From Methanococcus voltae PS (GTDB taxonomy: Archaea > AGJL01 > Methanococci > Methanococcales > Methanococcaceae), in assembly GCF_024807035.1 (NCBI RefSeq), contig NZ_JANUCQ010000002.1:62001-126000 (forward strand): DNA of 64,000 nucleotides, written 5' to 3'. Below the pieces are notes generated by a model. The model did no database searches. It had not been told where the DNA came from and saw only the letters and a program-made list of their open reading frames with translations. The position numbers and the translations under genes were made by a program. Position 1 is the stretch's first letter. The number at the start of each line of letters is the position of its first letter. Of this stretch, positions 1 through 14,602 are shown piece by piece.

Positions 1-1
1 G

Positions 2-157
2 ATTATCGGAATTATTGCAATATCTGTTTTAAGTTCAGGTTCTGACCCGACTGCGATTGCATCACAAGTAATGCAACAGATGAACGGTGTAAATACTCAA
101 AATGTAGCTAATGCAACTCAAACAGTTGTACAAAATACTACAATTTTAAAACCATAA
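2..157 (+). CDS. C-terminal 51 residues of a truncated protein with a hydrophobic segment
   Basis: An open frame enters from the left edge and stops with TAA at 155-157. It begins with a hydrophobic stretch (IIGIIAISVLSSG) and continues into a polar tail rich in Gln, Asn and Thr. The start lies outside the window, so the family cannot be judged. A small membrane-anchored virion protein is possible from the context, since the next genes resemble those behind the large 1,224-residue gene, but this is a guess. Confidence 0.6.
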   Translation: MIGIIAISVLSSGSDPTAIASQVMQQMNGVNTQNVANATQTVVQNTTILKP

Positions 158-195
158 TCTTTTTTCTTTTTAATTTATTATCAAACGGTGATTAC

Positions 196-1044
196 TTGGC
201 ACGAACTAAAAAAGGTAAATCTAATGAAGAATATATTCCAGATAAAGAAGATAAAAAGAAACTATTAAGGATATTTCACAGTATGTCTGTAGATAATCAA
301 CACAAGGATTTGCTAACCACTAAAAGGGTTATTAAAAAAGGAAATAGAAAACAGCTTGATGAATGGAAAAATAATCCGAAAGCGTATGATATTAGGGGGG
401 TCGATACACAACCGCCCGAACTAATGAATAAAAGATTATTTTATACGCATGAATATGTTGGTAAACCAAAACTTAAAGCAATGCCTGAGCCTGAAAAAGA
501 TAAACTTGGAGCGTTTAGGGCCAAACGAGGAATTCGTAATCCTGGTATTGTATATATTAACAAAGATATTAATAATAAGGTAGAATTTGAAAAAACTTTT
601 GCTCATGAATTAGGGCATGCGTATGATAGGAATGTAAAATCAGATTATGAAGAAGACGGGAATTACAAGTTTGGAGAAATAGGGTATAAACACCTAAAAA
701 AAAGAAAAAAGTTAAGAAACGAAGTAATTAATATAACTAAAAAAATATCTCCATATACTCAACAAAATAATCCGAAAGCGGAAATTAGGGTAAAAGAAAA
801 ACTGTATAGAACTAAAAATAAAGAAATGTTTGCAGATTGGTTCAGTGCATTATTAATTGATAAAAATAAAGTTAAAAAAGGTAAATCTTTTTATAATATG
901 TTTAAAAATCAAGAAAAAGATTTTATTAAAGGATTAAAGGAAGTGGATAAAGAAGTTACGAGTAAATATATTAAAACCCCCTCAAAAGTTAAATCAAAAG
1001 GTAAAAATAGTAAAAATAAGAGAAATAAAACTAAGAAAAAATGA
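196..1044 (+). CDS. HExxH zincin-type metallopeptidase, copy A
   Basis: Translation starts at TTG 196 behind GGTGAT (187-192); the paralog at 9745 has the same start context. The protein has 282 residues. HELGH at residues 137-141 gives two zinc ligands and the catalytic Glu, and Glu210 in KEMFADWF is the likely third ligand. The first 70 residues are nearly identical in both copies, the middle differs, and the C-terminus is a Lys-rich tail (about residues 264-282). There is no signal peptide or membrane segment. Three related small genes follow directly, and the whole module recurs at 9745-11852. A toxin, a virion-maturation protease or a host-modifying protease are all possible; the substrate is unknown. 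Confidence 0.8.
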   Translation: MARTKKGKSNEEYIPDKEDKKKLLRIFHSMSVDNQHKDLLTTKRVIKKGNRKQLDEWKNNPKAYDIRGVDTQPPELMNKRLFYTHEYVGKPKLKAMPEPEKDKLGAFRAKRGIRNPGIVYINKDINNKVEFEKTFAHELGHAYDRNVKSDYEEDGNYKFGEIGYKHLKKRKKLRNEVINITKKISPYTQQNNPKAEIRVKEKLYRTKNKEMFADWFSALLIDKNKVKKGKSFYNMFKNQEKDFIKGLKEVDKEVTSKYIKTPSKVKSKGKNSKNKRNKTKKK

Positions 1045-1052
1045 GGGATATT

Positions 1053-1424
1053 ATGGATGAGGAAAAAGGAAAGTATCTAAAAAAACTTAAAGACTTATTT
1101 GTTGAAGAATCTATTGAAGAGTTTGAAAAAGCTTTCCAAGATGAAAATGTACGCACTTCCCTAGACCCAACCTGTACTATTGAATATGATATAGATACGG
1201 GAGTTAAAGAAGATGATATTCTTGAAGAAGATGGAAAGATATACAAAGTTTATTATGCGTTGGGTAAAATAGATAAAGTACTTAAAAAAGGCTTTAAATT
1301 AAATGAATACGGGAGTGAAATATCGTATAACCCAATTACTAAAAAATACATTGTTTGTTGTAAGGAAGATAATGAGTGCATAGAGTACGATCGTATATCT
1401 GGATTACTAAGACCTGGTCGTTAA
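1053..1424 (+). CDS. Small acidic paralog-family protein 1
   Basis: I start it at ATG 1053 (MDEEKGKYL), preceded by GAGGGA in the conserved leader ATGAGGGATATT; the upstream ATG at 1041 lies in that leader. The product has 123 residues. The family core is an IEYDIDTGVKE segment, then GKIYKVY, then KVLKKGFKLN, then a YG.EISY strand. The protein looks soluble, mixed alpha/beta and acidic at the N-terminus. It is the first of three tandem paralogs behind a metallopeptidase, an arrangement seen for immunity or inhibitor arrays. I recognise no family. Start choice is moderately sure. Confidence 0.75.
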   Translation: MDEEKGKYLKKLKDLFVEESIEEFEKAFQDENVRTSLDPTCTIEYDIDTGVKEDDILEEDGKIYKVYYALGKIDKVLKKGFKLNEYGSEISYNPITKKYIVCCKEDNECIEYDRISGLLRPGR

Positions 1425-1457
1425 TATTATTTTAGTATCAAAAATGAGGGATATTTT

Positions 1458-1856
1458 ATGAATGAGGAAGAAAAAATATTTAGAGAAGAACTTAGGAAAC
1501 ATATGGGGGAGAAAATATCTATTGAAGACTATGAAGAAATTTTTCAAGATGAAAATCTTCGTACCACGGATGATCCAATCTGTACTATCGAATATGATGT
1601 AGATACGGGAGTTAAAGAAGATAATATTCTTGAAGAAGATGGAAAGAAATACAAAGTTTACCGTGCATTGGGTAAAGTAGATAAAGTACTTAAAAAAGGT
1701 TTTAAATTAAATGGGTATGGGGGAGAAATATCCTACGACCAAAATACAAAAAAATACATTGTTTATTGGGAAGAAGATAATGAATGGATAGAATGTGACC
1801 GTATATCTGGACTATTAAGACCCTGTCCATCCGGAATACTAAGAACTGGTCGTTAA
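1458..1856 (+). CDS. Small acidic paralog-family protein 2
   Basis: ATG 1458 follows the repeated leader AAAATGAGGGATATTTT. The 132 residues share almost the whole core with paralog 1, including IEYDVDTGVKE, GKKYKVY and KVLKKGFKLN. The N-terminal 40 residues differ, and the C-terminus carries an extra duplicated segment (LLRPCPSG then ILRTGR) compared with LLRPGR in paralog 1. Divergent ends on a conserved core suggest gene conversion or diversifying recombination within the array. Function unknown; immunity-like or inhibitor role is inferred only from position. Confidence 0.75.
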   Translation: MNEEEKIFREELRKHMGEKISIEDYEEIFQDENLRTTDDPICTIEYDVDTGVKEDNILEEDGKKYKVYRALGKVDKVLKKGFKLNGYGGEISYDQNTKKYIVYWEEDNEWIECDRISGLLRPCPSGILRTGR

Positions 1857-1889
1857 TATTATTTTAGTCTCAAAAATGAGGGATATTTT

Positions 1890-2276
1890 ATGAATGAGGA
1901 AGAAAAAATATTTAGAGAAGAACTTAGGAAACGTATGGTAACCAAGGAAGAACTTGAAAAAGAGATTGGTATGACCCTGGAAGAACTTGAAAGTTTGGAA
2001 GGTACTCGTACTTCTAAAGACCCAACCTGTACTATCGAATATGATATAGATACGGGAGTTAAAGAAGATGATATTCTTGAAGAAGATGGAAAAATATACA
2101 AAGTTTATTATGCGTTGGGTAAAATAGATAAAGTACTTAAAAAAGGCTTTAAATTAAATGAATACGGGAGTGAAATATCCTACGACCAAAATACAAAAAA
2201 ATACATTGTTTGTTATAAGGAAGATAATGAGTGCATAGAATATGACCGTATATCTGATTTATTAGTACCTTATTAG
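1890..2276 (+). CDS. Small acidic paralog-family protein 3
   Basis: ATG 1890 follows the same leader as paralog 2, and the first 14 residues match that gene. The rest of the N-terminus (EELEKEIGMTLEELESLEG) instead resembles the truncated gene at 11715. From IEYDIDTGVKE onward it is nearly identical to paralog 1. It ends with DLLVPY, and just past its stop a relic of the usual family 3' end survives (2286-2306). The gene therefore looks like a mosaic of its neighbours. 128 residues, no membrane segment, function unknown. Confidence 0.75.
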   Translation: MNEEEKIFREELRKRMVTKEELEKEIGMTLEELESLEGTRTSKDPTCTIEYDIDTGVKEDDILEEDGKIYKVYYALGKIDKVLKKGFKLNEYGSEISYDQNTKKYIVCYKEDNECIEYDRISDLLVPY

Positions 2277-2359
2277 TATTATAAACTGGTCGTTAATATT
2301 ATTTTTAAATAATTTACTATTTTATTTTAAATACATTTATTATCTTTTTAGGTGTAAAT

Positions 2360-2761
2360 ATGATTAATTTCATTTTATACATTTTATTATTTTTTAATAT
2401 TATTTTAATGTCTTATTGTGATTTAAAAAATAATTATGTATATCTTATTCAATTATTAATTAATTTTATATTATCTATTGCAATATCTTGGAATTCTAAT
2501 TTTATAGAATTGGGTTTGATTACTTTTTTACATTCATTGATATTATGCTTTGTTTTATCTCAATTCATGGGAAAAGGCGACTATTTTTATTTTATATCTA
2601 TTTCTTTTATATTTAATCCATTAGCGTTTTATATAATATTAATTACTTCCTTGGTTTCTACTTTATTTGTATTTCTAATTGAAGAGCGTAAAGGCTTCCC
2701 TTTTATCCCTATTGTATGTATTTACACGATAATGCTATTACCTGTAGCCACAATGTTTTAA
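2360..2761 (+). CDS. Prepilin peptidase-like aspartic protease (A24 family)
   Basis: ATG 2360 follows AGGTGT. The 133-residue integral membrane protein has about four hydrophobic segments. Asp21 in YCDLKNNYV and Asp74 in GKGD match the two catalytic aspartates of type IV prepilin peptidases (the DxxxxxIP-like and GxGD motifs), as in archaeal FlaK/EppA/PibD. It is shorter than cellular FlaK and resembles a minimal catalytic core. In the cell such enzymes remove class III signal peptides from pilins and archaellins at the membrane. It sits in an operon with small membrane proteins and the surface protein, so it may process element-encoded virion or pilus subunits. No obvious substrate is visible. 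Confidence 0.78.
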   Translation: MINFILYILLFFNIILMSYCDLKNNYVYLIQLLINFILSIAISWNSNFIELGLITFLHSLILCFVLSQFMGKGDYFYFISISFIFNPLAFYIILITSLVSTLFVFLIEERKGFPFIPIVCIYTIMLLPVATMF

Positions 2762-2773
2762 AATGGTGAAAAA

Positions 2774-3046
2774 ATGAGTGACGGAAAATATATAGTTATT
2801 GCAAAGGGTTTGATAACCTATGCAGTAATGCTTATAGCGTGGGGTTATATGACTTATATCGTTGGAATGGTCGATAATATCATAACTCCTATGACTGCAA
2901 ACGTTCCGCAGATGATGACCTGGCACGGAACGTATATTATGATGTGGAACGCTTTCCCTATCGAATTAGCAGTAATTATTTTAATTTATATGTATAAAAA
3001 AGGAAATTCAAACGAATATGAGAATAATTATCCAAGAGGATGGTAA
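2774..3046 (+). CDS. Small membrane protein, two transmembrane helices
   Basis: ATG 2774 follows GGTGAAAAA 12 bases after the preceding stop, indicating one operon. The 90 residues contain two hydrophobic helices (about 8-32 and 58-73) with a Met- and Thr-rich loop between them. The end overlaps the leader of the exported PKD protein gene. I recognise no family. A virion membrane protein or an assembly factor is plausible from the neighbours. Confidence 0.65.
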   Translation: MSDGKYIVIAKGLITYAVMLIAWGYMTYIVGMVDNIITPMTANVPQMMTWHGTYIMMWNAFPIELAVIILIYMYKKGNSNEYENNYPRGW

Positions 3047-3047
3047 T

Positions 3048-5222
3048 ATGAAACTAAAAATTTTACTATTTTTAACGATAATTTTATTTTCAATTTCGTT
3101 CTGTAATGCAGAACAGTGTTATTATCATTATGATTCAGATAATCAACTTTTAACTTTTAAAGTTCCAGAAATTCCTGCAAATGGTGAAGTTACTTATTAT
3201 GTTAATGAAGATGTAAATTCGGCTAACTATAGTAATCCAAATGAGGTTTATGACTTCTACTGCGATGCTTCTACTTATAACCCAAACGATTGGACAATTG
3301 TAGGAGCTACTGTTTCTGTTGTGAACGATAGGGTACAATTAGCGGTGACCGATTCGGCAGATACATACGATGACGGATATATGTATTATAACAGGGATAT
3401 TAACAGTCTTAGCACCGTGAAAATGTACGGACAACTTAGAAATGGGGGTCAATTTGCATTAGGAAACTATCTTATGGGAGGTACTGACGTTGCTTCTAAT
3501 TCACGTTTCCAATCGGGTGTAGCTACGTATTTTTACACTTATAATGATGCACCAGACGCATATAATATAATAGCAGATGATAATGACCATTACCATGAAA
3601 TTACGATGACTCCTAGCTATAGTATATATACATTAGATTCTGAAAAGAAAACAAGAGAAAAAACATCTACAATGACTGATGAAAAATTATTCTATCGTAA
3701 TTTCCGAACTGGAACTCAATCGTTCAAATGGATGGGCTTACAAAAATACAATGAAAATATTGTAATCTCAAAAAGTTTAGAAAATGGAAAATTAAAAGTT
3801 ACTATTAAAAATAATAACAATTACAACGTTGCAAACTATCAAATAGATTGTAAAATTACAGAATTAAATCCAACAATAAATAGTTTTAATATACCTAATC
3901 AGTATATTGAAACGGATGAAGGATTACAAATTCAAAAAGATAAAGAAGTTATTAATTTAGGGGATTCAGTACAATTTTCGGTAATTTCCAATTATGATAT
4001 AGATAGTTATACTTGGGATTTTGGAGATGGAACGACCGAATCAACCACTACTAACATTATAGCACATACGTATGCTAAATCGGGTGATTATACCGTAGTA
4101 TGTAAAGCTATTTTAACCAACGGTGATGTAAAATATAATAAAATAGATTTTATAGTAGGTACAAAAATATCAAATGCCGAAATTAAATTTTTAGATGAAT
4201 TAACAGGGGGAACTCCAAGTAATTTATCGATAAACGGTGTTTTATTTACTAACAATAATTATTTAGTAAATATATCAAACAATACAAATTATAATGTAAC
4301 TTACCCAGAATATTCAACAATAACTTTTACATCTTCAGATGGATTAATACGGCAAGTTGAAACAACCAATTTATCAAGTTATGAAATATTATTACCGCCT
4401 GCAAATACTTATGTTGTACAATATAATATTATATCATATTCTGATGATAAAATAGAAGTTAAAACAACTGATTTAAAAACAATAAATGTAGGTAATAAAG
4501 ATGTTGTAGCTCACTTAATAAAAGGTAAGACATATAATATTTTTGTAAATGGTAATTTTTATAAACAAATAATTGCAAAAGACCCTGATACAATATATAT
4601 TAATCAAAATGCAAACCAAGAAATTGGAAGTATTTTTGATAATAAATTATCTGAAAGAATTGAGTACAATATTCAACCAAACGGGCAGTACGGGCAGTAT
4701 TTAGTTGTTTTATCAAATAAAGATAAAGCAATAGGTAAAGTTATTGTAGTTACTGAAAAAAATACTGATACATACATTACATATAATGAAATAAACAGCA
4801 CTTTCGCATTAACTCGGGGATATAACGAATTAGATGCTTCAATATATCGTTGTGAAGAAAATTCTGAAATTTTATATGATATATTTGTAAATCAAAATTA
4901 TCAAAATTATGATGTAACAAACTATACTAAATTTCAAATATTAACTAAAAAAATCTATTTTGAATCTTATGAACCGCCTTATTTTACATTTACTTTTTAT
5001 TTAGTTCTATGCTTTTTGATATCTGCAATATTATTTGTAATTTTATCAGCTTCAAGTGGTAATTTGCATTTATCTTTATTGGTATCATCGGTTATATTTG
5101 CAGTAGTTCAGGATATATTTCATATTGGAGCTATTGGTAAAATATCGAGCGGTTTATTCTTATCTATTGCTATATTAGCGTGGGTATGGACAGTTTTTAA
5201 AAGGGGTGCAGAAAATGGCTAA
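3048..5222 (+). CDS. Exported surface protein: DUF2341/LamG-like N-terminus, PKD domain, C-terminal membrane segments
   Basis: I start at ATG 3048 behind GAGGATGGT; it opens a signal peptide (MKLKILLFLTIILF then CNA). The 724-residue protein begins with a segment like the end of DUF2341 domains (FKVPEIPANGEVTYYV, then SNPNEVYDF), followed by a LamG-like beta region. A PKD domain lies at about 307-367 (SYTWDFGDGTTES). Three hydrophobic segments follow from about 646 to 718. This is the layout of a membrane-anchored adhesin or virion spike. Large LamG-like proteins are known in spindle-shaped viruses such as PAV1. The partial gene at 63536 shares the N-terminal module. Role in attachment is inference. 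Confidence 0.78.
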   Translation: MKLKILLFLTIILFSISFCNAEQCYYHYDSDNQLLTFKVPEIPANGEVTYYVNEDVNSANYSNPNEVYDFYCDASTYNPNDWTIVGATVSVVNDRVQLAVTDSADTYDDGYMYYNRDINSLSTVKMYGQLRNGGQFALGNYLMGGTDVASNSRFQSGVATYFYTYNDAPDAYNIIADDNDHYHEITMTPSYSIYTLDSEKKTREKTSTMTDEKLFYRNFRTGTQSFKWMGLQKYNENIVISKSLENGKLKVTIKNNNNYNVANYQIDCKITELNPTINSFNIPNQYIETDEGLQIQKDKEVINLGDSVQFSVISNYDIDSYTWDFGDGTTESTTTNIIAHTYAKSGDYTVVCKAILTNGDVKYNKIDFIVGTKISNAEIKFLDELTGGTPSNLSINGVLFTNNNYLVNISNNTNYNVTYPEYSTITFTSSDGLIRQVETTNLSSYEILLPPANTYVVQYNIISYSDDKIEVKTTDLKTINVGNKDVVAHLIKGKTYNIFVNGNFYKQIIAKDPDTIYINQNANQEIGSIFDNKLSERIEYNIQPNGQYGQYLVVLSNKDKAIGKVIVVTEKNTDTYITYNEINSTFALTRGYNELDASIYRCEENSEILYDIFVNQNYQNYDVTNYTKFQILTKKIYFESYEPPYFTFTFYLVLCFLISAILFVILSASSGNLHLSLLVSSVIFAVVQDIFHIGAIGKISSGLFLSIAILAWVWTVFKRGAENG

Positions 5223-5589
5223 AACACAAGTTTGGAACATTATGGTTTTTATTTTATCTTTGAATATTGCTATTGCATTACTCCCTTCAGTATGTGATTA
5301 CTTCGAAATTCCCATAATTTCTTCAAATATTCCAACTGGAACGGGTGTAATGAGCTTAGGAGCTCTTTCAACGCCTTCCACTATTGGAGATATGGGTTTT
5401 GGTAATTGGTTCTTTGGTGCAACCATCTTGTCATCTTTATTCAATATAATATCTGGAAATTATATGGTTTGGAAATCTTTCGGAATACCATATCCATTTT
5501 CAGAATTATTTTCATTAGTTTGTGGAACTGTAACGTGGAGTACGATGTTCTATGTAATCACTGGTAAAGATATTTTTGGAGGGAGATAA
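5215..5589 (+). CDS. Small polytopic membrane protein
   Basis: ATG 5215 has GGGGTG at 5203-5208 and overlaps the end of the surface-protein gene by 8 bases, so the two are probably translationally coupled. The 124 residues hold about three to four hydrophobic segments separated by short loops. No family is recognised. Tight coupling to a membrane-anchored spike candidate suggests a partner subunit in the virion or cell envelope. Confidence 0.65.
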   Translation: MAKTQVWNIMVFILSLNIAIALLPSVCDYFEIPIISSNIPTGTGVMSLGALSTPSTIGDMGFGNWFFGATILSSLFNIISGNYMVWKSFGIPYPFSELFSLVCGTVTWSTMFYVITGKDIFGGR

Positions 5590-5912
5590 TGGTAAATACA
5601 AGTGTAGTATCATTGGATTTTGAAATATTATCAAATCCAAATATTTTTGAAACTTTAAAATATTTATTAGCTCTTTATCCTGAAACGGTTTCTATTATTT
5701 TATTGGGTGCAAATATTGCGATTTATTTATCTTCAAATAAAAATACGATGATTGTATTTGTCTCCGAATTAATTATGATAACTTTTATAAGTTTTTTTAT
5801 AGGTCTTGATGTCATATTCTCAAAATCAATTTCTACAACGGTTTTCATCGTTAATGGTGTTTTTACACTGATGATGTTAACTGAAACAATAAAAGAGATG
5901 CAAAAACCATAA
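5589..5912 (+). CDS. Small membrane protein, three transmembrane helices
   Basis: ATG 5589 overlaps the previous stop by one base (TAATG), with GGAGGGAG as ribosome binding site. The 107 residues contain three hydrophobic helices (about 36-48, 53-76 and 82-99) and a charged C-terminus. It belongs to the same operon as the surface protein. I recognise no family. Confidence 0.65.
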   Translation: MVNTSVVSLDFEILSNPNIFETLKYLLALYPETVSIILLGANIAIYLSSNKNTMIVFVSELIMITFISFFIGLDVIFSKSISTTVFIVNGVFTLMMLTETIKEMQKP

Positions 5913-5925
5913 ATGAGGTGAAATT

Positions 5926-8900
5926 ATGGCAATATCTTCACGTTCAAATCGTCCTAAAGTAAGAAGAGTAACAAGCAGTAAATCAAGCAGTAAATCAAGC
6001 GGTGGAAGTAGTAAAAAGAGTTCAAGTTCAAAATCTTCAAATAATAAAAGTAAATCAAGTTCCCCAAGTGCAATAAAAAGTGGGGAAACTCATTACGATG
6101 ATAAGGGAAACGCTTATCGTAAAGAAAAAGGTGGAGGGTTTAAAAAAGAAGGGGATAGTTCAGGAAATAGGTACCATAACGTGCCAAATTCCGCAAATGA
6201 TAAAAAGACTAACACAAATAGCAATAATAAACTCAATACACAAAATAAACAAGAGATAGCTAAACCTGATAATTATTATTCAAAAGGTTATGATAAGTAC
6301 ATTGGTAAAGATAAGAGTAAATTAAGCCCCTACATTAAAAATCATTGTGGTTATAAGTATGACGAATCGGGTCGAGTAACTGCAATATACGACCATTCAG
6401 GCAATCAATTAAGTAAACGAAGTATTGCAACTAAAAGCGATAGTTCAGTATATAATAAAGTAGGAAATGTAAATAATTATTCAAGAAGTGAATTAAATGA
6501 CGGGAAAGTAACCATTATCGATAGAAACACAAATTCAAGAATAACATATAATAAAAACGATATAGTTGTTAAAGATGGAAATATATTAGTTAGAAAAAGT
6601 GCAGTTCAACAAAAAGATCCTGATGAAATTCATTATGGGCGAGTGTATTATAACGATGGACATGGTAGTTATAACGCAAAACCTCCAAAGAAAACCAATA
6701 AACAAGCTGAAAGAAATACATATGATATTAATAAAGTTGAAATTCATTCTGGTTCTGATTATGAAGTAGTTTATGATAAAAAAGGGAATTTGATAGGAGT
6801 TTACAATAAAGATAGTATTAAAAGATATAAAACTAATGGGGGAACTACTCGGATAATTTTAGATAAAAATGAAGTTTATTTAAAAGAAAATAAAATTAAT
6901 TTCATTGATAAAAATGGAAATCAACAAGTTGTTAATATTACTAAAAATACAGATAATTCATTTAATATTAATCAAGTTCAAAAGAATGTAATTTCAATAA
7001 CTGAGTTAGGAGTATCTAAAAAGAAATTAGATAATGGTAAAACTGTTTTATACAGTATTAATAACGACGGAGAAATTGATTTTTTAAAAACTGTTGATAC
7101 AACTAAAATAAAAAATGGAAATATAAATATTAATGATTTAAAAGATTTAACTTCAAATGAAAAAGTTATTTTAAAAAATAAAGGGATAACGTATAATATA
7201 CAAGGTAGCGATACACCCGACACTTTTCAAATATCTTGTGACGTTGCAAAGTATGCTAATCCACCTAAGTTTTTACAAACTGAAGAATATAAACCTGAAG
7301 TTGATACTTTAGATTATTATAAAGAGAATATTGGTGTCAATTGGGCCGTAAATGAAATATCTAAGTTGGGCGATAAAGCAGGAGCTAAAGCAACAATATA
7401 TACAACATTACCAATGATTATAGGGGATAACCCAGTAATTACTCAGGCCACCACAGCTATGGGACATTTTGACAACGATATTACAAAAAATCCATTATAT
7501 GAAACTGAACCTATAATATTTGGAAGAAAAGTAACAAGTAATGTAATGGGTGGTATTTCTGATTTCTTCGGGTCAGGATGTACTGTAGTAGGGGTAGAAG
7601 CTACAAAGGGTTTAGTTGGCGATAAAACTTTTGGAAAAGTATCAAATGAATTTGCAACATATACCGTTGATGGGTTATATCACGGCACGGTTACGCCCTA
7701 TGGTAATGCTATGCAAGGGGACTTTTCAACCAAAAATGTTGCAGATATGATGAATTTACCTTTAATGGTTGTTGGTGCAAGAGGTGGTATAAAATCGGGT
7801 GCATCCTTAGGTAAAACAGTGGCTAAAAAGGGAAGCAAAGCATTGAAGAATCCAAAAGCTACTTTAAAAACGGGTAAAAATTATATTAAAAATGAATATA
7901 ATGGTATTATTGATTTTAAAAATACTATAAAAAGTGACTCGTTTAATATAAAAACTAATAATTTTGAGATAACTAAAACTACTTATCCAAAGATACAAAA
8001 CTGGGAAGTTAACGTAAATATTGGAAAAGCAGATGCTTTTTTTGATTTCACTAAAACAGATATTGCTAAAAACATTAATACAAAATTATCTTATGGAGAT
8101 AAGTCCATATCTAACAGATATTTAAATAATCCAAGATACGGTAAAGTTTCAGAAACTACTACTAAAAAGGGTAGCAATTCAAAAAGAACTTCAACACACA
8201 ATATGGTTGACGGTGGAACACTTGATATATTGGAAAAAAATACTAAAAATAGCAAATATGGAAAATATAAATTAGATAATGATATGAATACAGTACACAA
8301 TGAATATTTCAACATATTTGATAACGAAAATAGTTTTAGTGCTACAAGGAATTCATATTATAATAAATATACTAAAAAATGGCACGATGTTAAAAAAATC
8401 GATGGTAGCACAGACTATGGAAGAACTAACTTTTTTGGAGAATATGGTATAGGGAGTAAAGGAACGAAATATAAAAAAGGAGTTACTGCTAAAGATTTAA
8501 ACAATCGAGAATATTCTAACATCTATACTGCAGAATCTCAAAATTTAATGGGTTTAAATGAAATAAAGAATATTGAACCGCTTTCTGAAATTAAAAGCTA
8601 TAAAGATAATTTTATAGTTAGTGATAAACCGCTTTCTGAAATCAAAATAAATGAAATGTCCGACAATACATTTTTTAAGAGTAATACTCTTACTGAAAGA
8701 GAAACTGGTACTGGTCATCGTTCTATATCATTACAAAAGACTAAAAACTTAAAAGAAAATGGTAAATTTAGCAGGTCGACACATGAAATAAAAGTAAATG
8801 ATAATTATATGATAGATTATGTCGGTGGTGAAGCCATCAATATTATGGAATTTCAGGAAAGATTTGGTTTAAAAGGAAAAGGTCCAAAAGTACCGAGTAA

Positions 8901-9600
8901 ATATAAAACAAATCCCTCCAAAAGCAAAAGAAAAAATTTGAGAGATAAAACAGATTTTTCTATCTTTGATGATATAGAAGCTTCTAAAAAAGGAAATAGT
9001 AAAGTAGTTAGTAAAAATAGTAGAAAAACGACTAAAAAAGGAAATAATAAGAAAAAATCAAGTACAAAAACTTCAAAGCAAGATGTAACTACGAATAAAG
9101 CAGGAACTAAAAATCAGAATAATAATAATAATAAGAATCAGAATAATAATAAGAATCAGAATAATAATAAGAATCAGAATAATAATAAGAATCAGAATAA
9201 TAATAAGAATCAGAATAAAGTTGGAATATTTACAGAAAATAATTTAAAAACTAATTCAGAAACTGGCACTCTCACAAATAATCCATTTAAGCAAGATATT
9301 ACAAATAATTTAAAAGTAGGGGAAATTCTAGGTACAAAAACCATATCATTGCAAAAAACAAAAAGTAAACAAAAGAGTTTATTATTTTCAGGTTTTGGAG
9401 CTACTGAGTTGACAGCACCTTACCCCACAATCCCAGAACCTGAACCACCTAAACCAATCCCCCCAAGACCTAAGCCAAAAAAAGTTAAAAAAGGGAAGAA
9501 AAGAAAAGGAAGCGATTCACCAATGGGAAATAATTTATTTTGGGGAAATACAAAGAAAAACTCTAAAAAATGGGAGTTTGATTTAAAAGACATATTATAA
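5926..9600 (+). CDS. Giant low-complexity protein, 1,224 residues, probable virion or effector protein
   Basis: ATG 5926 follows GAGGTGAAATT. The first 60 residues are almost only Ser, Lys, Arg and Asn. A region rich in Lys, Asn, Tyr and Asp repeats runs to about residue 470 (repeated YDKKGN/IYNKD-like units). A more hydrophobic, Gly/Ala-rich segment follows at about 480-640. A long hydrophilic region comes next, then an Asn/Gln/Lys minisatellite (about 1063-1097), a Pro-rich stretch (PEPEPPKPIPPRPKPKK) and a basic C-terminus. No catalytic motif was found. The position between membrane/spike genes and the second metallopeptidase module suggests a structural protein or a polymorphic effector; neither can be proven here. 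Confidence 0.7.
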   Translation: MAISSRSNRPKVRRVTSSKSSSKSSGGSSKKSSSSKSSNNKSKSSSPSAIKSGETHYDDKGNAYRKEKGGGFKKEGDSSGNRYHNVPNSANDKKTNTNSNNKLNTQNKQEIAKPDNYYSKGYDKYIGKDKSKLSPYIKNHCGYKYDESGRVTAIYDHSGNQLSKRSIATKSDSSVYNKVGNVNNYSRSELNDGKVTIIDRNTNSRITYNKNDIVVKDGNILVRKSAVQQKDPDEIHYGRVYYNDGHGSYNAKPPKKTNKQAERNTYDINKVEIHSGSDYEVVYDKKGNLIGVYNKDSIKRYKTNGGTTRIILDKNEVYLKENKINFIDKNGNQQVVNITKNTDNSFNINQVQKNVISITELGVSKKKLDNGKTVLYSINNDGEIDFLKTVDTTKIKNGNININDLKDLTSNEKVILKNKGITYNIQGSDTPDTFQISCDVAKYANPPKFLQTEEYKPEVDTLDYYKENIGVNWAVNEISKLGDKAGAKATIYTTLPMIIGDNPVITQATTAMGHFDNDITKNPLYETEPIIFGRKVTSNVMGGISDFFGSGCTVVGVEATKGLVGDKTFGKVSNEFATYTVDGLYHGTVTPYGNAMQGDFSTKNVADMMNLPLMVVGARGGIKSGASLGKTVAKKGSKALKNPKATLKTGKNYIKNEYNGIIDFKNTIKSDSFNIKTNNFEITKTTYPKIQNWEVNVNIGKADAFFDFTKTDIAKNINTKLSYGDKSISNRYLNNPRYGKVSETTTKKGSNSKRTSTHNMVDGGTLDILEKNTKNSKYGKYKLDNDMNTVHNEYFNIFDNENSFSATRNSYYNKYTKKWHDVKKIDGSTDYGRTNFFGEYGIGSKGTKYKKGVTAKDLNNREYSNIYTAESQNLMGLNEIKNIEPLSEIKSYKDNFIVSDKPLSEIKINEMSDNTFFKSNTLTERETGTGHRSISLQKTKNLKENGKFSRSTHEIKVNDNYMIDYVGGEAINIMEFQERFGLKGKGPKVPSKYKTNPSKSKRKNLRDKTDFSIFDDIEASKKGNSKVVSKNSRKTTKKGNNKKKSSTKTSKQDVTTNKAGTKNQNNNNNKNQNNNKNQNNNKNQNNNKNQNNNKNQNKVGIFTENNLKTNSETGTLTNNPFKQDITNNLKVGEILGTKTISLQKTKSKQKSLLFSGFGATELTAPYPTIPEPEPPKPIPPRPKPKKVKKGKKRKGSDSPMGNNLFWGNTKKNSKKWEFDLKDIL
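9112..9216 (+). repeat. In-frame 18-base minisatellite
   Basis: About five tandem copies of an 18-base unit encode Asn-Gln-Asn-Asn-Asn-Lys inside the 1,224-residue protein. Copies are almost perfect, so the number of units is likely to vary between strains by slippage without breaking the frame. Confidence 0.9.
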
Positions 9601-9650
9601 TTAATTAACTTTTTTTAATATCTTATTTTAAAACAGTTTAAGGTGAAACT

Positions 9651-9722
9651 ATGGAAATAGTTCAGATTATAACTTTTATTGTAATTGGAAGCATTACAAG
9701 CACTTTATTTTTATTTTATTAA
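9651..9722 (+). CDS. Possible 23-residue membrane micropeptide
   Basis: ATG 9651 follows AGGTGA at 9641-9646 with normal spacing. The product MEIVQIITFIVIGSITSTLF plus three residues is one hydrophobic helix. Its stop lies just upstream of the point where the second metallopeptidase module begins to match the first. The open frame is short, so it may be chance, but the ribosome binding site is as good as those of neighbouring genes. Confidence 0.4.
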   Translation: MEIVQIITFIVIGSITSTLFLFY

Positions 9723-9744
9723 TTTATTATCAAACGGTGATTAC

Positions 9745-10560
9745 TTGGCACGAACTAAAAAAACTAAATCTAATGAAGAATATACTCCGAATAAAGAAGA
9801 TAAAAAGAAATTATTAAGGATATTTCACAGTATGCCCCGAGATGTACAACATAAAGATTTACTAACCACTAAAAGAGTTATTAAAAAAGGAAATAAAAAA
9901 CAGCTTGATGAATGGAAAAATAATCCGAAAGCATATGATATTAGGGGAATAGATACACAACCTGAGGAGTTATTAAAAAGAAGATTAGATTATGTTACAA
10001 ACTATGCAGGTAATCCAAAAATAGATATACAGGAACATAAAGGGATAGAAGGTGAATATGAATATTACCCCGGCGGTGGTAAAAGTAAAAAAGTACCAAA
10101 ACAAGGTATAATTAGAATAAATAATAAAGGAAGGAGTGAAAAAGAAGTTGACATACTGCTTAGCCATGAATTGGGTCATGCGTTCCATAGAAACGTTAAA
10201 GGTAATTTAGATGAAGATTACTATAATTTTAAAAAGATGCAACCCAACCCGCATAATAAAAAACAATTATATAATGAAATATTAGCAATAGATAATAGAA
10301 TAGTACCATATAATAAGAAAAAAGATAAAGATTTTACACAATATCGTAACCAAGATAAAGAATTATTTGCAAACTTTTTTAGAGGGTTACTAACAAATAA
10401 AAATACTATAAAGAAAGGAAAGTCTTTTTACAATATATTTAAAAATGAAAATAAAGATTTTATGAATGGTTTAAAAGGTGTGGATAAAGAAGTTTTAAAG
10501 AAATATACTAAGGAGCCACTCAAAAAGAAGAGAAAAACTAAATCAAAAAAGAAAAAGTGA
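9745..10560 (+). CDS. HExxH zincin-type metallopeptidase, copy B
   Basis: TTG 9745 is chosen because the sequence from the GGTGAT ribosome binding site through the first 70 residues matches copy A at 196; an upstream TTG at 9685 would only read through the micropeptide region. The protein has 271 residues, HELGH at 141-145 and a likely third ligand Glu207 in KELFANFF. Between about residues 80 and 140 it differs strongly from copy A, including a Gly- and Tyr-rich insertion. The Lys-rich tail is kept. Three paralogs and one truncated gene follow, as in module A. Conserved ends with a variable middle suggest diversification of specificity. Confidence 0.8.
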   Translation: MARTKKTKSNEEYTPNKEDKKKLLRIFHSMPRDVQHKDLLTTKRVIKKGNKKQLDEWKNNPKAYDIRGIDTQPEELLKRRLDYVTNYAGNPKIDIQEHKGIEGEYEYYPGGGKSKKVPKQGIIRINNKGRSEKEVDILLSHELGHAFHRNVKGNLDEDYYNFKKMQPNPHNKKQLYNEILAIDNRIVPYNKKKDKDFTQYRNQDKELFANFFRGLLTNKNTIKKGKSFYNIFKNENKDFMNGLKGVDKEVLKKYTKEPLKKKRKTKSKKKK

Positions 10561-10564
10561 TATT

Positions 10565-10867
10565 ATGAAGAAAAAACCAGTTAGTAGCTCTAATTATAGA
10601 CACGAATTTAGTATTGATTATAAAATACAAACTAACGTAAAAGAAGATAGGATTAAAATATCTAATGGAAAAAAGTACAGGGTATATTCCAGGGTGAGTA
10701 AAATAGAGAAGGTACTTAAAAAAGGTTTTAAATTATATATTGGAGTATTTAGAGTATCTTATAATAAAGAAAGTGGAAAATACGAATTATACGATACGGA
10801 AGAGAAAAATATATACAAGGAATTAGATGATATCGAAGAGTATTGGAGAATGTTCCAAATAATGTAA
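10565..10867 (+). CDS. Small paralog-family protein 4
   Basis: ATG 10565 is 4 bases after the metallopeptidase stop, with GTGATATT as binding site, so the two are coupled. The 100 residues carry the family core: FSIDYKIQTNVKED, GKKYRVY, KVLKKGFKL and a VSYNKESGKYEL strand. The N-terminal extension of paralogs 1-3 is absent. It is about 85% identical to paralog 6 over the first 60 residues. Function unknown. Confidence 0.72.
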   Translation: MKKKPVSSSNYRHEFSIDYKIQTNVKEDRIKISNGKKYRVYSRVSKIEKVLKKGFKLYIGVFRVSYNKESGKYELYDTEEKNIYKELDDIEEYWRMFQIM

Positions 10868-10901
10868 TAATAGGGGAAATATAAAAAATGAGGGATATTT
10901 T

Positions 10902-11345
10902 ATGGATGAGGAAAAAGTAGAATATGACACGAGAAAGTTTTTAGAAGAACTTAAAAAGGATCCTGGTGAAGATGTAGTGAAAGACGTAAAAGAAAAAGAA
11001 AGTTGCGAAGTCACATGGAAATTTGGACAAAAGTATGTTGAAATAAGTTACAAAGACCCTCTGGACCACTATAAAGATATACCCTATCCTCCAAAATGTT
11101 ATATTGAATATGAAGTAAAAACTGGCGTAAAAGAAAATTATACTATGATAGAAAGCGGAAAAAAGTATAAAGTATATAGTTCATTGCCAAAGATAAGACG
11201 AGTATTGAAAAAGGGTTTTATATTAAAGATGCCCGTGGGAAAAATAAAATATAACTCAAATAGTGAAGAATATGAGGTAGGAAATAGTAAAGATGAGATA
11301 TATATGAGACAAGACAGTATTTATAAAATTTGGCATTTGGATTAA
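10902..11345 (+). CDS. Small paralog-family protein 5, longer N-terminus
   Basis: ATG 10902 follows the array leader AAAATGAGGGATATTTT. The 147 residues start like paralog 1 (MDEEKVEYD), then carry an extra segment of about 50 residues containing several Lys, Glu and aromatic residues. The core follows (CYIEYEVKTGVKEN, GKKYKVY, RVLKKGFIL). The longer N-terminus makes this the most divergent member. Function unknown. Confidence 0.72.
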   Translation: MDEEKVEYDTRKFLEELKKDPGEDVVKDVKEKESCEVTWKFGQKYVEISYKDPLDHYKDIPYPPKCYIEYEVKTGVKENYTMIESGKKYKVYSSLPKIRRVLKKGFILKMPVGKIKYNSNSEEYEVGNSKDEIYMRQDSIYKIWHLD

Positions 11346-11375
11346 AAATAGATATACTGGAAAATAAGGGATTTT

Positions 11376-11678
11376 ATGAAGAAAAAACCATTTAGTAGCT
11401 CCAATTATAGGCACGAATTTAGTATTGATTATAAAATACAAACTAACGTAAAAGAAGACAGGATTGAAATATCTGATGGAAAAAAGTACCGAGTATATTC
11501 CAGGGTGAGTAAAATAGAGAAGGTACTTAAAAAAGGTTTTAAATTAGAAGCAGAACCTTTGATATTATCATACAATAAAGAAACTGGAAAATATGAATTA
11601 TATAATACCGAATACAAAGAAGTAGTTGAACAGATGGATAGATTAATAGAATACTGGGAAAATCGACCAATAATGTAA
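11376..11678 (+). CDS. Small paralog-family protein 6
   Basis: ATG 11376 follows AAGGGATTTT. The 100 residues repeat paralog 4 almost exactly to the KVLKKGFKL motif and then diverge (LEAEPLILSYNKETGKYELY). A conserved first half with a variable second half is the pattern seen across the array. Function unknown. Confidence 0.72.
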   Translation: MKKKPFSSSNYRHEFSIDYKIQTNVKEDRIEISDGKKYRVYSRVSKIEKVLKKGFKLEAEPLILSYNKETGKYELYNTEYKEVVEQMDRLIEYWENRPIM

Positions 11679-11714
11679 TGGGAGAAATACTACTAAGAAA
11701 AAATGAGGGATTTT

Positions 11715-11852
11715 ATGGATGAGGAAAAAAGAAAATGTATAAAAAAACTTAAAGATTTATTTATTGAAGAATCAGATGCAGAATTTAAAAAAAAATATGG
11801 GATGACTCGTGATGAGTTTGAAAAGTTGGAAAGTACTGAAATACGTTATTGA
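11715..11852 (+). pseudogene. Truncated paralog-family gene, N-terminal part only
   Basis: ATG 11715 has the array leader ATGAGGGATTTT. The 45 codons match the N-terminus of paralog 1 (MDEEKRKCIKKLKDLFIEES) and then that of paralog 3 (GMTRDEFEKLE), but the frame stops with TGA before the conserved core. The following DNA does not continue the family. It is the eroded last member of the array, ending where the recombinase control region begins. Confidence 0.75.
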
Positions 11853-11910
11853 ATAAAATATTTTATACATTTATTTTTCAATTATATTAAAATTTATTAT
11901 AATTTTTTTA

Positions 11911-12045
11911 GTACCAATAACGACCGTTATTGGGAATATTTTTATTTTATAAATTATTGTTATTTTTTGTTAAAATATTGGTTCCAAAACTCGTACCAAA
12001 ATCAAAGTATTTTTAGTAAATAATTTTATGAGTTTTGGGAATCTT
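11911..12045. promoter_or_regulatory. Inverted and direct repeats upstream of serine recombinase (possible res or crossover site)
   Basis: CCAATAAC (11914-11921) and GTTATTGG (11926-11933) form a perfect 8-base inverted repeat. TTCCAAAACTC (11982-11992) pairs with GAGTTTTGGGAA (12030-12041) apart from one extra base. The right arms of both share the context TTGGGAAT followed by a T-rich run. Arrays of imperfect dyads before a resolvase-type gene are typical for res sites and autoregulatory operators. Which of the two applies cannot be told from sequence. Confidence 0.5.
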
Positions 12046-12086
12046 TTTTATTTTATTATTTTTATTATAATATTATTGGTGATATT

Positions 12087-12635
12087 ATGATTATTGGTTA
12101 TGCAAGAGTATCAACCAAGGAACAGAATATTGAAAAGTATATTGAGGAACTTAAAAAAGCAGGTTGTGAAAAAATCTACTTTGAAAAGATTTCAGGGGCT
12201 AAATCACAACGTCCAGAGTTTCAAAAGATGATGGAAACTATTCGGAAGAATGATATTGTTGTAGTTTCAGATTTAACTCGTTTATCTCGCAGTATGAAAG
12301 ATTTAATAAATACTATGGAATTATTTAAATCTAAGGGCGTTCAATTAAAAAGTATAAAAGAAAGCTGGATTAATACAACAACTGCACAGGGTGAGTTAAT
12401 GTTTAATATTTTTTCCGCTTTGGCAGAATTTGAACGTAAATTAATAAAAGAAAGAACTAAAAACGGTTTAGATATTGCACGTTCACGGGGTCGAGTTGGT
12501 GGTCGTCCCAAAGTTGATAATAATAAGTTAGAAATGGCTATTAAATTATATAATTCTGGTGAATGTACATTAAAAGAAATAAAAGAGATTACTGGAATTA
12601 GTAAGACTACTTTGTATAGATATTTGGAAAAATAA
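12087..12635 (+). CDS. Serine recombinase, resolvase/invertase family
   Basis: ATG 12087 follows GGTGATATT. The 182 residues show the complete small serine recombinase fold: catalytic Ser9 in YARVSTKEQN, the DLTRLSRS arginine motif, the AEFERKLIKERTKNG helix leading to DNA, and a C-terminal helix-turn-helix (LKEIKEITGISKTTLYRYLE). Its length is normal for resolvases and invertases. It would resolve element dimers at a res-like site or invert a segment. Its position right behind the paralog array allows a role in array variation. Substrate sites are inferred, not proven. Confidence 0.92.
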   Translation: MIIGYARVSTKEQNIEKYIEELKKAGCEKIYFEKISGAKSQRPEFQKMMETIRKNDIVVVSDLTRLSRSMKDLINTMELFKSKGVQLKSIKESWINTTTAQGELMFNIFSALAEFERKLIKERTKNGLDIARSRGRVGGRPKVDNNKLEMAIKLYNSGECTLKEIKEITGISKTTLYRYLEK

Positions 12636-12657
12636 TAAAAAGAAAGATACATTTTAG

Positions 12658-12912
12658 TTATATAAAGGGTCCTACAATAGACCTTAAAATGATGACAATT
12701 ATAGCCAATAACCAAAAAATATAAACTACCAATGAAATTGCAAATATAATAATACCTTCAATAGAAAATAGTATTAAAAATATATAAATCAAATATTTAA
12801 CAATTGTATGTCTTTTTGATGCAAAATTGTAAAGACCTTCTATGTTAGATGTATAACGCTTAATAACGCCATAAGTAAACCCTTTATCAAATTTATTAGG
12901 TTCTTCAGTCAT
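12658..12912 (-). CDS. Small membrane protein, two transmembrane helices
   Basis: The start is ATG at 12912 behind AGAGGTTTTAAT; upstream in-frame codons have no binding site. The 84 residues have a polar N-terminal 35 residues (MTEEPNKFDKGFTYGVIKRY) and two long hydrophobic helices joined by a tight turn. It converges with the serine recombinase gene (23 bases apart). No family is recognised. Confidence 0.6.
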   Translation of the reverse strand: MTEEPNKFDKGFTYGVIKRYTSNIEGLYNFASKRHTIVKYLIYIFLILFSIEGIIIFAISLVVYIFWLLAIIVIILRSIVGPFI

Positions 12913-13065
12913 ATTAAAACCTCTTTTTAAACTTATAATAATTAATTTTAATATCCTAAATATATAATATTTTGTATATAATTGTGTTAAAAAGATGTAA
13001 TTATATATAGTCATATACCGTATTAATAGATAACTATATATACTATAAGTTACATAGTATATATT

Positions 13066-13095
13066 GCAAGAGATAGAATGCTCTTGCAGTGAGGC
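13066..13095 (+). promoter_or_regulatory. Hairpin leader with CTCTTGCAGTGAGG motif, copy 1
   Basis: GCAAGAG (13066-13072) and CTCTTGC (13081-13087) form a perfect 7-base stem, and the 3' arm runs into AGTGAGG, which serves as the binding site of the 28-codon gene at 13102. The same motif with its own hairpin is found at 13706-13735. A stem that overlaps the region before the start could modulate translation. Confidence 0.5.
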
Positions 13096-13101
13096 AATAA
13101 A

Positions 13102-13188
13102 ATGAATGAAGATGAATTATTAAAAAAACTAACAATCATTTTTATAATGGTTGAAATAATTGAAAAGATTTTAAATATTTTAAAATAA
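13102..13188 (+). CDS. 28-residue micropeptide
   Basis: ATG 13102 follows GTGAGG at 13090-13095. The peptide starts MNEDELLKKLTIIFIMVEII and continues as one amphipathic to hydrophobic helix. It lies between a hairpin leader and a small membrane protein gene. Too short for any family assignment; support is the good ribosome binding site only. Confidence 0.4.
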   Translation: MNEDELLKKLTIIFIMVEIIEKILNILK

Positions 13189-13236
13189 ATCTTTTCTTTT
13201 ATTTTTTGAGTAATTTATCTATAAATGAGGTATACT

Positions 13237-13413
13237 ATGGAAAATAAAAAAAGTAACAGTACACCACTTACTAATAAAGTACTGTTAGTATTAATCGGAT
13301 TATATGGGCTTTATGTATTATATGAAACCCATATAAATAACAGCCCTGCGTTTTATAGCTATGCTACATTAACTTTATTCGCAATAGCGACCCAGGTGCT
13401 TTATAAAAAATAA
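13237..13413 (+). CDS. Small membrane protein, two transmembrane helices
   Basis: ATG 13237 is preferred over 13225 because GAGGT (13227-13231) then lies at normal spacing. The 58 residues contain hydrophobic helices at about 15-31 and 40-55 with a short loop. It forms a unit with the winged-helix gene that starts 23 bases later. Function unknown. Confidence 0.55.
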   Translation: MENKKSNSTPLTNKVLLVLIGLYGLYVLYETHINNSPAFYSYATLTLFAIATQVLYKK

Positions 13414-13436
13414 TTCTTTAACTTTTTAGGGATAAA

Positions 13437-13688
13437 ATGGAAAAAAAGAAGAGTATGAAAGGGATAACTAATTTAGATAAAATTAGAATGAAAGAAGAGA
13501 AAAAAGAGGCAATATATAACCTTATTAAACTATATAATACAAAACATAAAATTCCATTAACAATTTATCAAATTACATTAATCACTGAAATCCCTTTTAA
13601 TACTGTAAAAAGTTATCTTAGGGAACTGGTTCAGGAAAATAAATTAACTATTGAAAAGAAAAGTTACTATTTCATTGTAAAAGAATAA
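13437..13688 (+). CDS. Small winged-helix DNA-binding protein
   Basis: ATG 13437 follows AGGGATAAA. The 83 residues hold a basic N-terminus and a winged-helix core: YQITLITEIPFNTVKSYLRE reads as helix-turn-recognition helix, and LTIEKKSYYFIV as the wing. Such proteins regulate early genes of archaeal viruses and plasmids. Its target may include the hairpin motifs on either side, which is a guess. Confidence 0.65.
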   Translation: MEKKKSMKGITNLDKIRMKEEKKEAIYNLIKLYNTKHKIPLTIYQITLITEIPFNTVKSYLRELVQENKLTIEKKSYYFIVKE

Positions 13689-13705
13689 AAATAAAAAATA
13701 TATTT

Positions 13706-13735
13706 AAGAGATAAAAATCTCTTGCAGTGAGGTAG
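13706..13735 (+). promoter_or_regulatory. Hairpin with CTCTTGCAGTGAGG motif, copy 2
   Basis: AAGAGA (13706-13711) pairs with TCTCTT (13718-13723), followed by GCAGTGAGGTAG exactly as in copy 1. No start codon follows at a useful distance, so here the motif is not simply a ribosome binding site. The stem sequence co-varies in part between the copies (GCAAGAG/CTCTTGC against AAGAGA/TCTCTT) while the 3' tail is kept. Confidence 0.5.
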
Positions 13736-13786
13736 TATATTCTATATTCCTTTTTTTATAAATAATTAATCATATAATTTAGTTAT

Positions 13787-14602
13787 TTATTTTTTAATAT
13801 TCTTAGATATGTTGTCCAAATGTTGATTTGTTATTTTCAAGTTGTCGTTAATTTTACCCATTTGATTTTTCGTAGATTTGGAACTAGAAATATCAATATA
13901 AGACTTTAATTCACATAAATCTAATTCCATATATTTAAGAATTTCCTCCCCAAAACTATTTTTATAATTTATATTAAATTTAAAAAGTATATCATAAATA
14001 ATATCCTGATAATCCTTTGTATTTATGATAAATAATAATTTCCGTTGATTAGGTGCTAAAAAATTAATTTTTTTAGAAAATATGGGGAGTTCAGAAATAA
14101 TATTTCCAATACTATCTTCCAGGGTATTATTTTCATCGTCTGCAAATGTAATTTCAACATCTTTTGCAATACCCTGACCAATATTTTCAAGGTAAAAACT
14201 TACAAAATTAAACGTTTCACCATGTGCTAAATATATTATTAATTCTGGTTTTTGTAGTTCTTTTCTTTGCAATTCTAATTCTTCACGCTGTTTTTTAGCC
14301 TCATTAAGCATATCTATTTCTATTTGTTGTTGTTTTGACATTTCGTTAATTACAGCCCCTGCAAAAAACATTGCGCCGAAAGTTCCAAATGCAGCAATTG
14401 TTGTTGTAAGGTTTGAATAATATATTGATTCACTATATGATTTAGTAAAAAATACGCTATAATACGCATATAAAACTGCAAGAACTATCATAACATTTAC
14501 AAATATAATAAGGTCGTTTTTATATAGTTCTTTGAAATTAAAACGGCGTGCATACATATATAAGCCCAAAAAAACGGTTAAAATAATTATTTCTACTATC
14601 AT
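13787..14602 (-). CDS. Membrane protein with coiled coil and C-terminal beta-rich domain
   Basis: ATG at 14602 follows GGTGAGTAATAT. The 271 residues carry hydrophobic segments at about 2-18, 31-50 and 66-86. A charged coiled coil follows (about 87-118, with repeated Glu, Gln and Lys), then a domain with PELIIYLAHGETF and AKDVEITFADDENN that resembles an immunoglobulin-like beta fold. Proteins with this layout occur in many prokaryotes without known role. It could act in the host membrane, for instance in superinfection control, but nothing in the sequence proves that. Confidence 0.65.
   Translation of the reverse strand: MIVEIIILTVFLGLYMYARRFNFKELYKNDLIIFVNVMIVLAVLYAYYSVFFTKSYSESIYYSNLTTTIAAFGTFGAMFFAGAVINEMSKQQQIEIDMLNEAKKQREELELQRKELQKPELIIYLAHGETFNFVSFYLENIGQGIAKDVEITFADDENNTLEDSIGNIISELPIFSKKINFLAPNQRKLLFIINTKDYQDIIYDILFKFNINYKNSFGEEILKYMELDLCELKSYIDISSSKSTKNQMGKINDNLKITNQHLDNISKNIKK

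Follow-up and report, generated by a model that had tools for sequence, protein, structure and literature searches.

Modules of a zincin and tandem small paralogs in a virus-like element of Methanococcus voltae PS, compared with polymorphic toxin cassettes

The bacterial polymorphic toxins of the contact-dependent inhibition (CDI), Rhs and similar systems combine a constant N-terminus with an exchangeable catalytic C-terminal part, are followed by small linked genes, and are exchanged as units, leaving behind the tail of the old gene and an orphan. The present work concerns two gene modules, A and B, each formed by a putative HExxH metallopeptidase (zincin) and a tandem set of small paralogous genes, in what is best read as a virus-like integrated element, or provirus, of the methane-producing archaeon Methanococcus voltae PS. 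The window, that is, the whole stretch of 64,000 nucleotides analysed, comprises bases 62001-126000 of contig C2 in a genome of 1.78 Mb (G000); positions are those of the window, and contig coordinates are named as such. Related genomes are designated by number (G001, G005, G006).

In the literature examined, archaeal virus toxins are described for a few Sulfolobus spindle-shaped viruses (SSV), with the antitoxin unidentified. The toxins occupy one variable genome position with nine alleles and linked small genes (PMC8628083). The SSV9 toxin B310 inhibits uninfected cells and alone suffices for protection, and the small gene C108 alone is unprotective (PMC8628083). The SSV1 gene a291 is dispensable for replication and required for growth inhibition, and its antitoxin is reported as undetermined (PMC13431529). 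Two further archaeal systems are relevant: VARTIG of Thermococcales, whose plan its authors liken to polymorphic toxin systems (PMC8416519), and pilus-like loci whose large protein combines a zincin with an Ig-like fold, unlike the zincins considered here (PMC4158269). The provirus A3-VLP of M. voltae A3 is described as having a primase (PMC5862659). Among the listed papers on polymorphic toxins in archaea and archaeal viruses, and on metallopeptidases of methanogens or spindle-shaped viruses, no title pointed to such a cassette; an archaeal polymorphic toxin survey (Makarova 2019) could contain relevant families.

Modular zincins, linked small genes and their exchange

A preliminary description of the window, made from its letters, had proposed two modules that share a zincin-then-small-genes plan, and this was borne out at 196-2276 and 9745-11852. 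A third module was located on the same contig. The genes are the following:

157-2349, plus strand: locus A cassette; flanked by the same genes, G006 has another cassette, of 1.5 kb, in its stead
196-1044, plus strand: zincin A, 282 amino acids, TTG start; constant N-terminus 1-73, HELGH at 137-141, conserved Glu210, Lys-rich tail
1053-1424, plus strand: small paralog a1, 123 amino acids (start at 1041 in the list of open reading frames)
1458-1856, plus strand: small paralog a2, 132 amino acids
1890-2276, plus strand: small paralog a3, 128 amino acids
9745-10560, plus strand: zincin B, 271 amino acids; constant N-terminus as in A, divergent catalytic part
10565-10867, plus strand: small paralog b1, 100 amino acids
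10902-11345, plus strand: small paralog b2, 147 amino acids
11376-11678, plus strand: small paralog b3, 100 amino acids; fold model with a mean pLDDT of 84
contig 33.2-34.5 kb, minus strand: module C, 28 kb upstream and outside the window, with zincin C (contig 33.6-34.4 kb) and one paralog

The start of a1 is most likely 1053 rather than 1041, judging from alignment and spacing.

Three zincins (A, B and C) were found when the whole genome was searched with zincin A, and homologs were present in two of the six other genomes of the genus (G005 and G006). In a comparison of these few sequences only, all zincin pairs matched at BLASTP E 3e-64 or better; invariant in 5/5 were HELGH and, further along, a Glu (residue 210 of A) that is presumably the third zinc ligand of an HExxH zincin. 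The conserved ends and variable middle noted earlier were confirmed, the catalytic residues being kept while identity between A and B dropped from 89% over residues 8-73 to 31% over residues 74-215. The corresponding values were 94% and 61% for A and the G006 zincin, and 92% and 41% for B and the G006 zincin. Synonymous divergence (dS) in the N-terminal, middle and C-terminal parts was 0.19, 0.70 and 0.25 for A-G006, and 0.20, 1.11 and 1.04 for B-G006; Fisher tests of synonymous change in the N-terminal versus the middle part, performed on rounded counts, gave p values of 0.002 (A-G006), 4e-5 (B-G006) and 5e-4 (A-B). Positive selection alone was considered as an explanation for the variability of the middle part and rejected, because synonymous divergence rises too. 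Since selection at the protein level would leave dS unraised, its jump at a joint near codon 73 argues for recombination, and the zincin is a constant N-terminus of about 73 residues joined to an exchangeable catalytic part, divergent catalytic parts most likely having been recombined in. The C and G005 zincins are closely related, with little change in any part; in the alignment and the dS comparison the G005 sequence begins at an internal Met and its N-terminus is therefore short.

Eight intact small proteins were compared, seven from the window genome and one from G005. In this eight-sequence comparison each of the 28 pairs reached a BLASTP E of at most 1e-11, and the motifs VKE, GK.Y.VY and VLKKGF were invariant in 8/8. 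The preliminary description had counted three or four core-sharing proteins per module; the core was found in the eight intact ones, and the supposed fourth (11715-11852) is a relict without it. Between paralogs b1 and b3, 57 codons are nearly the same (dS 0.18) and the other 43 have diverged (dS 1.58), and a1 and a3 differ mainly in their N-terminal parts, so the small paralogs appear to be mosaics too. All eight stand behind a zincin, in two genomes, and none was found elsewhere; by the searches made, the small genes form a family that diversifies and is confined to positions behind zincins.

The history of locus B can be read from three segments:

9963-11682, plus strand: segment exchanged relative to G006, from about codon 73 of zincin B to the end of b3
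11683-11706, plus strand: remnant of an older A-type zincin gene, its stranded last seven codons with the stop; the intact zincin of G006 ends in the identical sequence
11715-11852, plus strand: relict paralog, a 45-codon open reading frame with the N-terminal part only, which stops before the shared core and is identical in G006

At this locus G006 carries an A-type zincin, whose last 24 bases lead directly into the relict paralog and then into the resolvase gene. The window, from 11683 onwards behind b3, has the same 24-base tail, relict and following sequence (377/385 identical to G006), and here the tail ends no gene; at the upstream boundary, the first 73 or so codons of zincin B match G006. 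The stranded tail and the relict behind b3 indicate that a catalytic half and b1-b3 together replaced an A-type catalytic half, and the tail marks the window state of locus B as the derived one. The sequence of locus B shows that effector half and small genes recently changed as a single block. The module is real and well delimited, with direct evidence of cassette exchange in its sequence.

No zincin was present at locus A of G006. The 1.5-kb cassette found there encodes a small transmembrane protein, a ClpP-like protein, a Lys-rich protein of 77 residues and a transmembrane protein. The ClpP gene was detected in 1/22 genomes of the family, and another cargo gene was observed in G005:

L028 1467-1979 (G006), minus strand: ClpP-like protease (PF00574 E 2e-12; phrog_94, phage head maturation protease, E 2e-14), in place of zincin A
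L027 7889-8323 (G005), minus strand: gene with a SocA/Panacea antitoxin domain (Pfam E 1.8e-18), extra cargo between the module C counterpart and the resolvase gene

In element C, which carries module C, the genes at the corresponding place encode proteins of 351 and 90 residues and are separated by only some 20 bases. The correspondence is one of gene order, as the 351-residue protein is dissimilar to the 417-residue one and the gene for the leader peptidase is found elsewhere. A related element in G001 encodes proteins homologous to the capsid-like one and to those of 90, 127 and 107 residues, together with a distant ATPase, and its 1232-amino acid protein, like-placed to the large protein of the window, matches the latter over 35 residues only (49-83). 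Neither zincin, nor PKD-domain protein, nor A24-like protein was matched in this element (tblastn, E 0.01, over 34 kb), and no paralog was found in G001 by single-query and profile searches. Thus, the ClpP cassette of G006 and the zincin-less element of G001 make the proteases of these elements look accessory and changeable.

The zincin was found in 3/22 family genomes (single query) and in 3/36 phylum genomes (profile), all of one genus. A profile search with the paralog family, as the preliminary description had proposed, gave intact copies in 2/36 genomes (seven in G000, one in G005). A marginal profile match in G024 (E 0.009, among the 36 genomes) and three single-query matches in G007 and G019 (E 0.03-0.06, among the 22) were counted as chance. 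Searches of viral contigs and genome contigs yielded no relatives, and the same held for phages and plasmids, queried with the zincin only; all these collections may omit records near the window.

Family resemblance was faint for both partners. Peptidase_M78 matched 3/5 zincins at E 1 or less (best 0.0029) and Peptidase_M76 matched one of the five (E 0.0016), with the scores of A and B under the cut-off in each case; around HELGH, zincin A weakly matched the phage metallo-protease family phrog_87 (E 2.5e-5; 2/5 zincins at E 0.1). By sequence profile, no solved relative of the zincin was found at E 1. For the small proteins the nearest family was DUF7793, matched by 2/8 (best 22.1 bits against a cut-off of 26), and the profile retrieved three solved chains only, at E 0.08-0.27. 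The structure prediction proposed earlier was informative for b3, whose core was predicted as a compact sheet plus helix with a pLDDT of about 94. The best hit of this fold in the VIA structure comparison had a Z of 3.9 (61 aligned, 2.8 A) among mostly three-strand sheets and is unconvincing. A reading of the small proteins as ADP-ribosyltransferase-like was considered and dropped.

Zincins are strongly basic, a paralogs acidic, and b1 and b3 basic. A hydropathy scan revealed no hydrophobic segment in the four zincins or seven paralogs scanned; the top 19-residue mean in the four zincins was 0.06, as against 2.7-2.8 in membrane-protein controls, so that by hydropathy, the one measure applied, a signal peptide of the SSV type was not seen.

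Possible roles of the modules

The modules may be competition cassettes of an archaeal provirus, resembling polymorphic toxins in pairing an effector with an immunity-like partner; we put this tentatively, at a little short of an even chance. The zincin is modular and linked to small genes, both were exchanged jointly, and the related element lacks them; effector function, delivery with the particle and inhibition by the small proteins would be the functional side of this reading. Two traits of polymorphic toxins were found, namely a constant N-terminus with an exchangeable C-terminal part, and the exchange of effector and small genes as a unit (one event). Joint exchange, the different cassette at locus A and the zincin-less G001 element speak for accessory cargo of the conflict type rather than for a maturation protease essential to the virion.

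As a mechanism, the zincin would act against cells or elements without the right partner and would travel inside or alongside the virus particle. Particle cargo is suggested by the lack of a hydrophobic signal, the strongly basic charge and the usual position after a large structural-type gene; delivery in this way may be compatible with the absence of a delivery-domain match and of a hydrophobic segment. The constant N-terminal part could serve in delivery or packaging. Cognate zincins would be bound and restrained by the small proteins, sparing the carrier and its own proviruses, and tandem copies might broaden protection. The cassette would then serve the competition of carriers against non-carriers, like the SSV toxins. 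True polymorphic toxin-immunity cassettes, with a particle-borne metallopeptidase, a constant delivery domain, swappable killing domains and growing arrays of cognate inhibitors, by which rival and co-resident proviruses would compete cassette by cassette within methanogen populations, we consider doubtful.

Several observations weigh against the cassette reading. The main one is the intact zincin of G006, which has no intact partner (1/5 zincins): only a relict stands behind it, in an assembly of 20 contigs that is 97% complete, so that an intact candidate immunity gene adjoins four of the five zincins. Toxin-immunity pairs normally show the reverse of this state, in which the effector is intact and the partner lost. 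Possibly this zincin acts only in other cells, the relict suffices, the assembly lacks the stretch with the partner, or inhibition is not what the partners do. Immunity is a candidate role of the small proteins and is partly contradicted by G006. The earlier likening to toxin/immunity arrays gains strength from the unit exchange, the joint near codon 73, the different locus A cassette and the 8/8 paralogs behind zincins, and its immunity half is partly contradicted. The preliminary description had also held that finding the two families regularly apart would speak against it; they separate once and in one direction, which is not regular. In addition, the joint exchange was seen as a single event, and three module types limit the matching of zincins with paralogs. 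No recognised secretion or toxin-delivery domain was found in the zincins against Pfam/NCBIfam, and neither zincin nor small protein scored above any curated family cut-off. The zincin fold model, from five sequences, was of low confidence (pLDDT 42), and Foldseek searches of PDB and BFVD with the paralog fold returned no match reaching E 0.001. Charge complementarity of zincins and paralogs was examined and rejected, the charges not being consistently complementary. The linked small genes of SSV showed no antitoxin action in the tests reported (PMC8628083, PMC13431529).

An alternative that we regard as unlikely is a virion maturation or entry protease: the zincin would trim a structural protein, for instance the large upstream one, or open the host envelope, and the small proteins would hold it inactive until assembly as inhibitors or chaperones. 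Its position right after a large structural-type gene in 4/5 modules fits this role, as do the ClpP-like protein of a phage head maturation family in the G006 cassette and the weak phrog_87 match of zincin A. This alternative, also raised in the preliminary description, is weakened by the G001 element. Five proteins of structural type have matches there, among them the small membrane proteins and, over 35 residues only, the large protein, whose counterpart is of similar size; a distant ATPase is present as well, and the zincin is lacking. Two different zincins in one element, catalytic parts that are more diverged than the flanking genes and recombinationally exchanged, and the lack of an intact inhibitor in G006 tell against it as well.

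That the zincin is a protease directed at the host or at rivals, cleaving receptors or proteins of host defence in counter-defence or superinfection exclusion, and that the small proteins are adaptors for target choice instead of conferring immunity, seems quite unlikely. It would account for the tolerated loss of small proteins in G006 and for their diversification behind a conserved enzyme plan; it does not by itself explain the unit exchange of effector half and small genes, and PADLOC gave a single weak match for the zincins (Csx21, E 0.009, zincin B). Neutral turnover, in which fast-evolving accessory genes recombine homologously among co-resident proviruses and enzyme and small genes are functionally unlinked, appears improbable. 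Three related modules in one genome offer ample recombination substrate, and the similarity of the large upstream protein to its relatives is likewise piecemeal; against this stand the 8/8 intact paralogs behind zincins with reading frames kept, and the movement of both families together at locus B.

If the competition-cassette reading is true, methanogens would have a virus-driven competition system. The locus offers a candidate enzyme class with a mutable active site, candidate partners and natural swaps for specificity, and genetic tools exist for Methanococcus.

The element and its neighbouring genes

Modules A and B frame a run of structural-type genes. These encode an A24-like protein, a protein with a PKD domain (Pfam E 2e-13), small proteins of membrane type and a large protein of 1224 residues. 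Features outside the modules are listed here:

2360-2761: A24 leader-peptidase-like protein (A24 E 7e-5, under the Pfam cut-off)
5926-9600, plus strand: large Ser/Lys/Asn-rich protein, 1224 amino acids, directly upstream of the zincin in 4/5 modules
12087-12635, plus strand: serine resolvase (Pfam E 4e-45)

The A24-like copy of element C (L004 10167-10577) is 31% identical to that of the window. In these elements A24-like proteins adjoin the PKD-domain and small membrane proteins, which suggests pilin-like processing in a particle or entry apparatus. The large Ser/Lys/Asn-rich protein matches its relatives only piecewise. By eye, the large proteins of element C (L004 6713-10174) and G005 (L027 11845-15282) are near identical with a middle stretch replaced, and look mosaic. 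The small hydrophobic proteins align across three element types, the C-type copies being only 23-27% identical, and no match to the His1 ORF21 protein was obtained in a comparison with spindle-shaped virus two-helix capsids.

Upstream of module A, an AAA-type ATPase matched phrog_22963 at E 2e-185, so a near relative of it is already present in the virus protein library. The element also contains integrases and a resolvase, and a 999-amino acid protein. In phage records, no match to the ATPase, the capsid-like or the 999-amino acid protein was obtained. Contig C2 from 28 to 76 kb (L004, L005 and window 1-14000) holds two related, divergent elements, C on the minus and A/B on the plus strand; one integrase gene sits between them and a second beyond. 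Beside element C, at L004 2521-4506, an AAA ATPase with an OLD-like TOPRIM domain was noticed, possibly a defence gene.

A resolvase gene was also found downstream of the module C, G005 and G006 zincins. Upstream of that in the window, at 11914-11933, an 8-bp perfect inverted repeat (CCAATAAC/GTTATTGG, 4-bp spacer) was seen by eye, and it occurs in G006 as well; it is possibly a resolvase site. Inverted repeats near the resolvase were rejected as evidence, since 29 pairs are too common in this AT-rich stretch; the 8-bp repeat is not among the 25 listed.

Comparison with known systems

The element resembles A3-VLP in being a methanococcal provirus and in having a 999-amino acid protein that weakly matches a primase family (phrog_4861 E 0.009); judged by description rather than by sequence, the two may belong to one kind. 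Phage proteases are approached in two ways, through the phrog_94-like ClpP of the G006 cassette and the phrog_87 match of zincin A around HELGH. Unlike those proteases, the zincin is missing from the related G001 element and scores under the Pfam cut-offs of the peptidase families that it resembles. With VARTIG it shares an archaeal hypervariable module and recombination of one part (PMC8416519); VARTIG is a large Ig-domain protein, and its abstract mentions neither zincin nor virus (PMC8416519).

The SSV toxin locus (SSV9 B310, SSV1 a291) is alike in belonging to an archaeal virus, in its variable alleles at one position and in its small downstream genes. For the SSV toxins, signal peptides are reported and the predicted fold resembles hydrolases; in M. 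voltae the enzyme is a putative HExxH metallopeptidase lacking a hydrophobic signal and accompanied by paralogous arrays. From the bacterial polymorphic toxins the zincin cassette differs in its short N-terminus (73 amino acids) with no known delivery domain, in being virus-borne, and in one intact effector that lacks an intact partner, immunity being only a proposal here. It shares with the CDI/Rhs type the constant N-terminal part, the swappable catalytic part, the small genes downstream, and a stranded tail followed by a relict.

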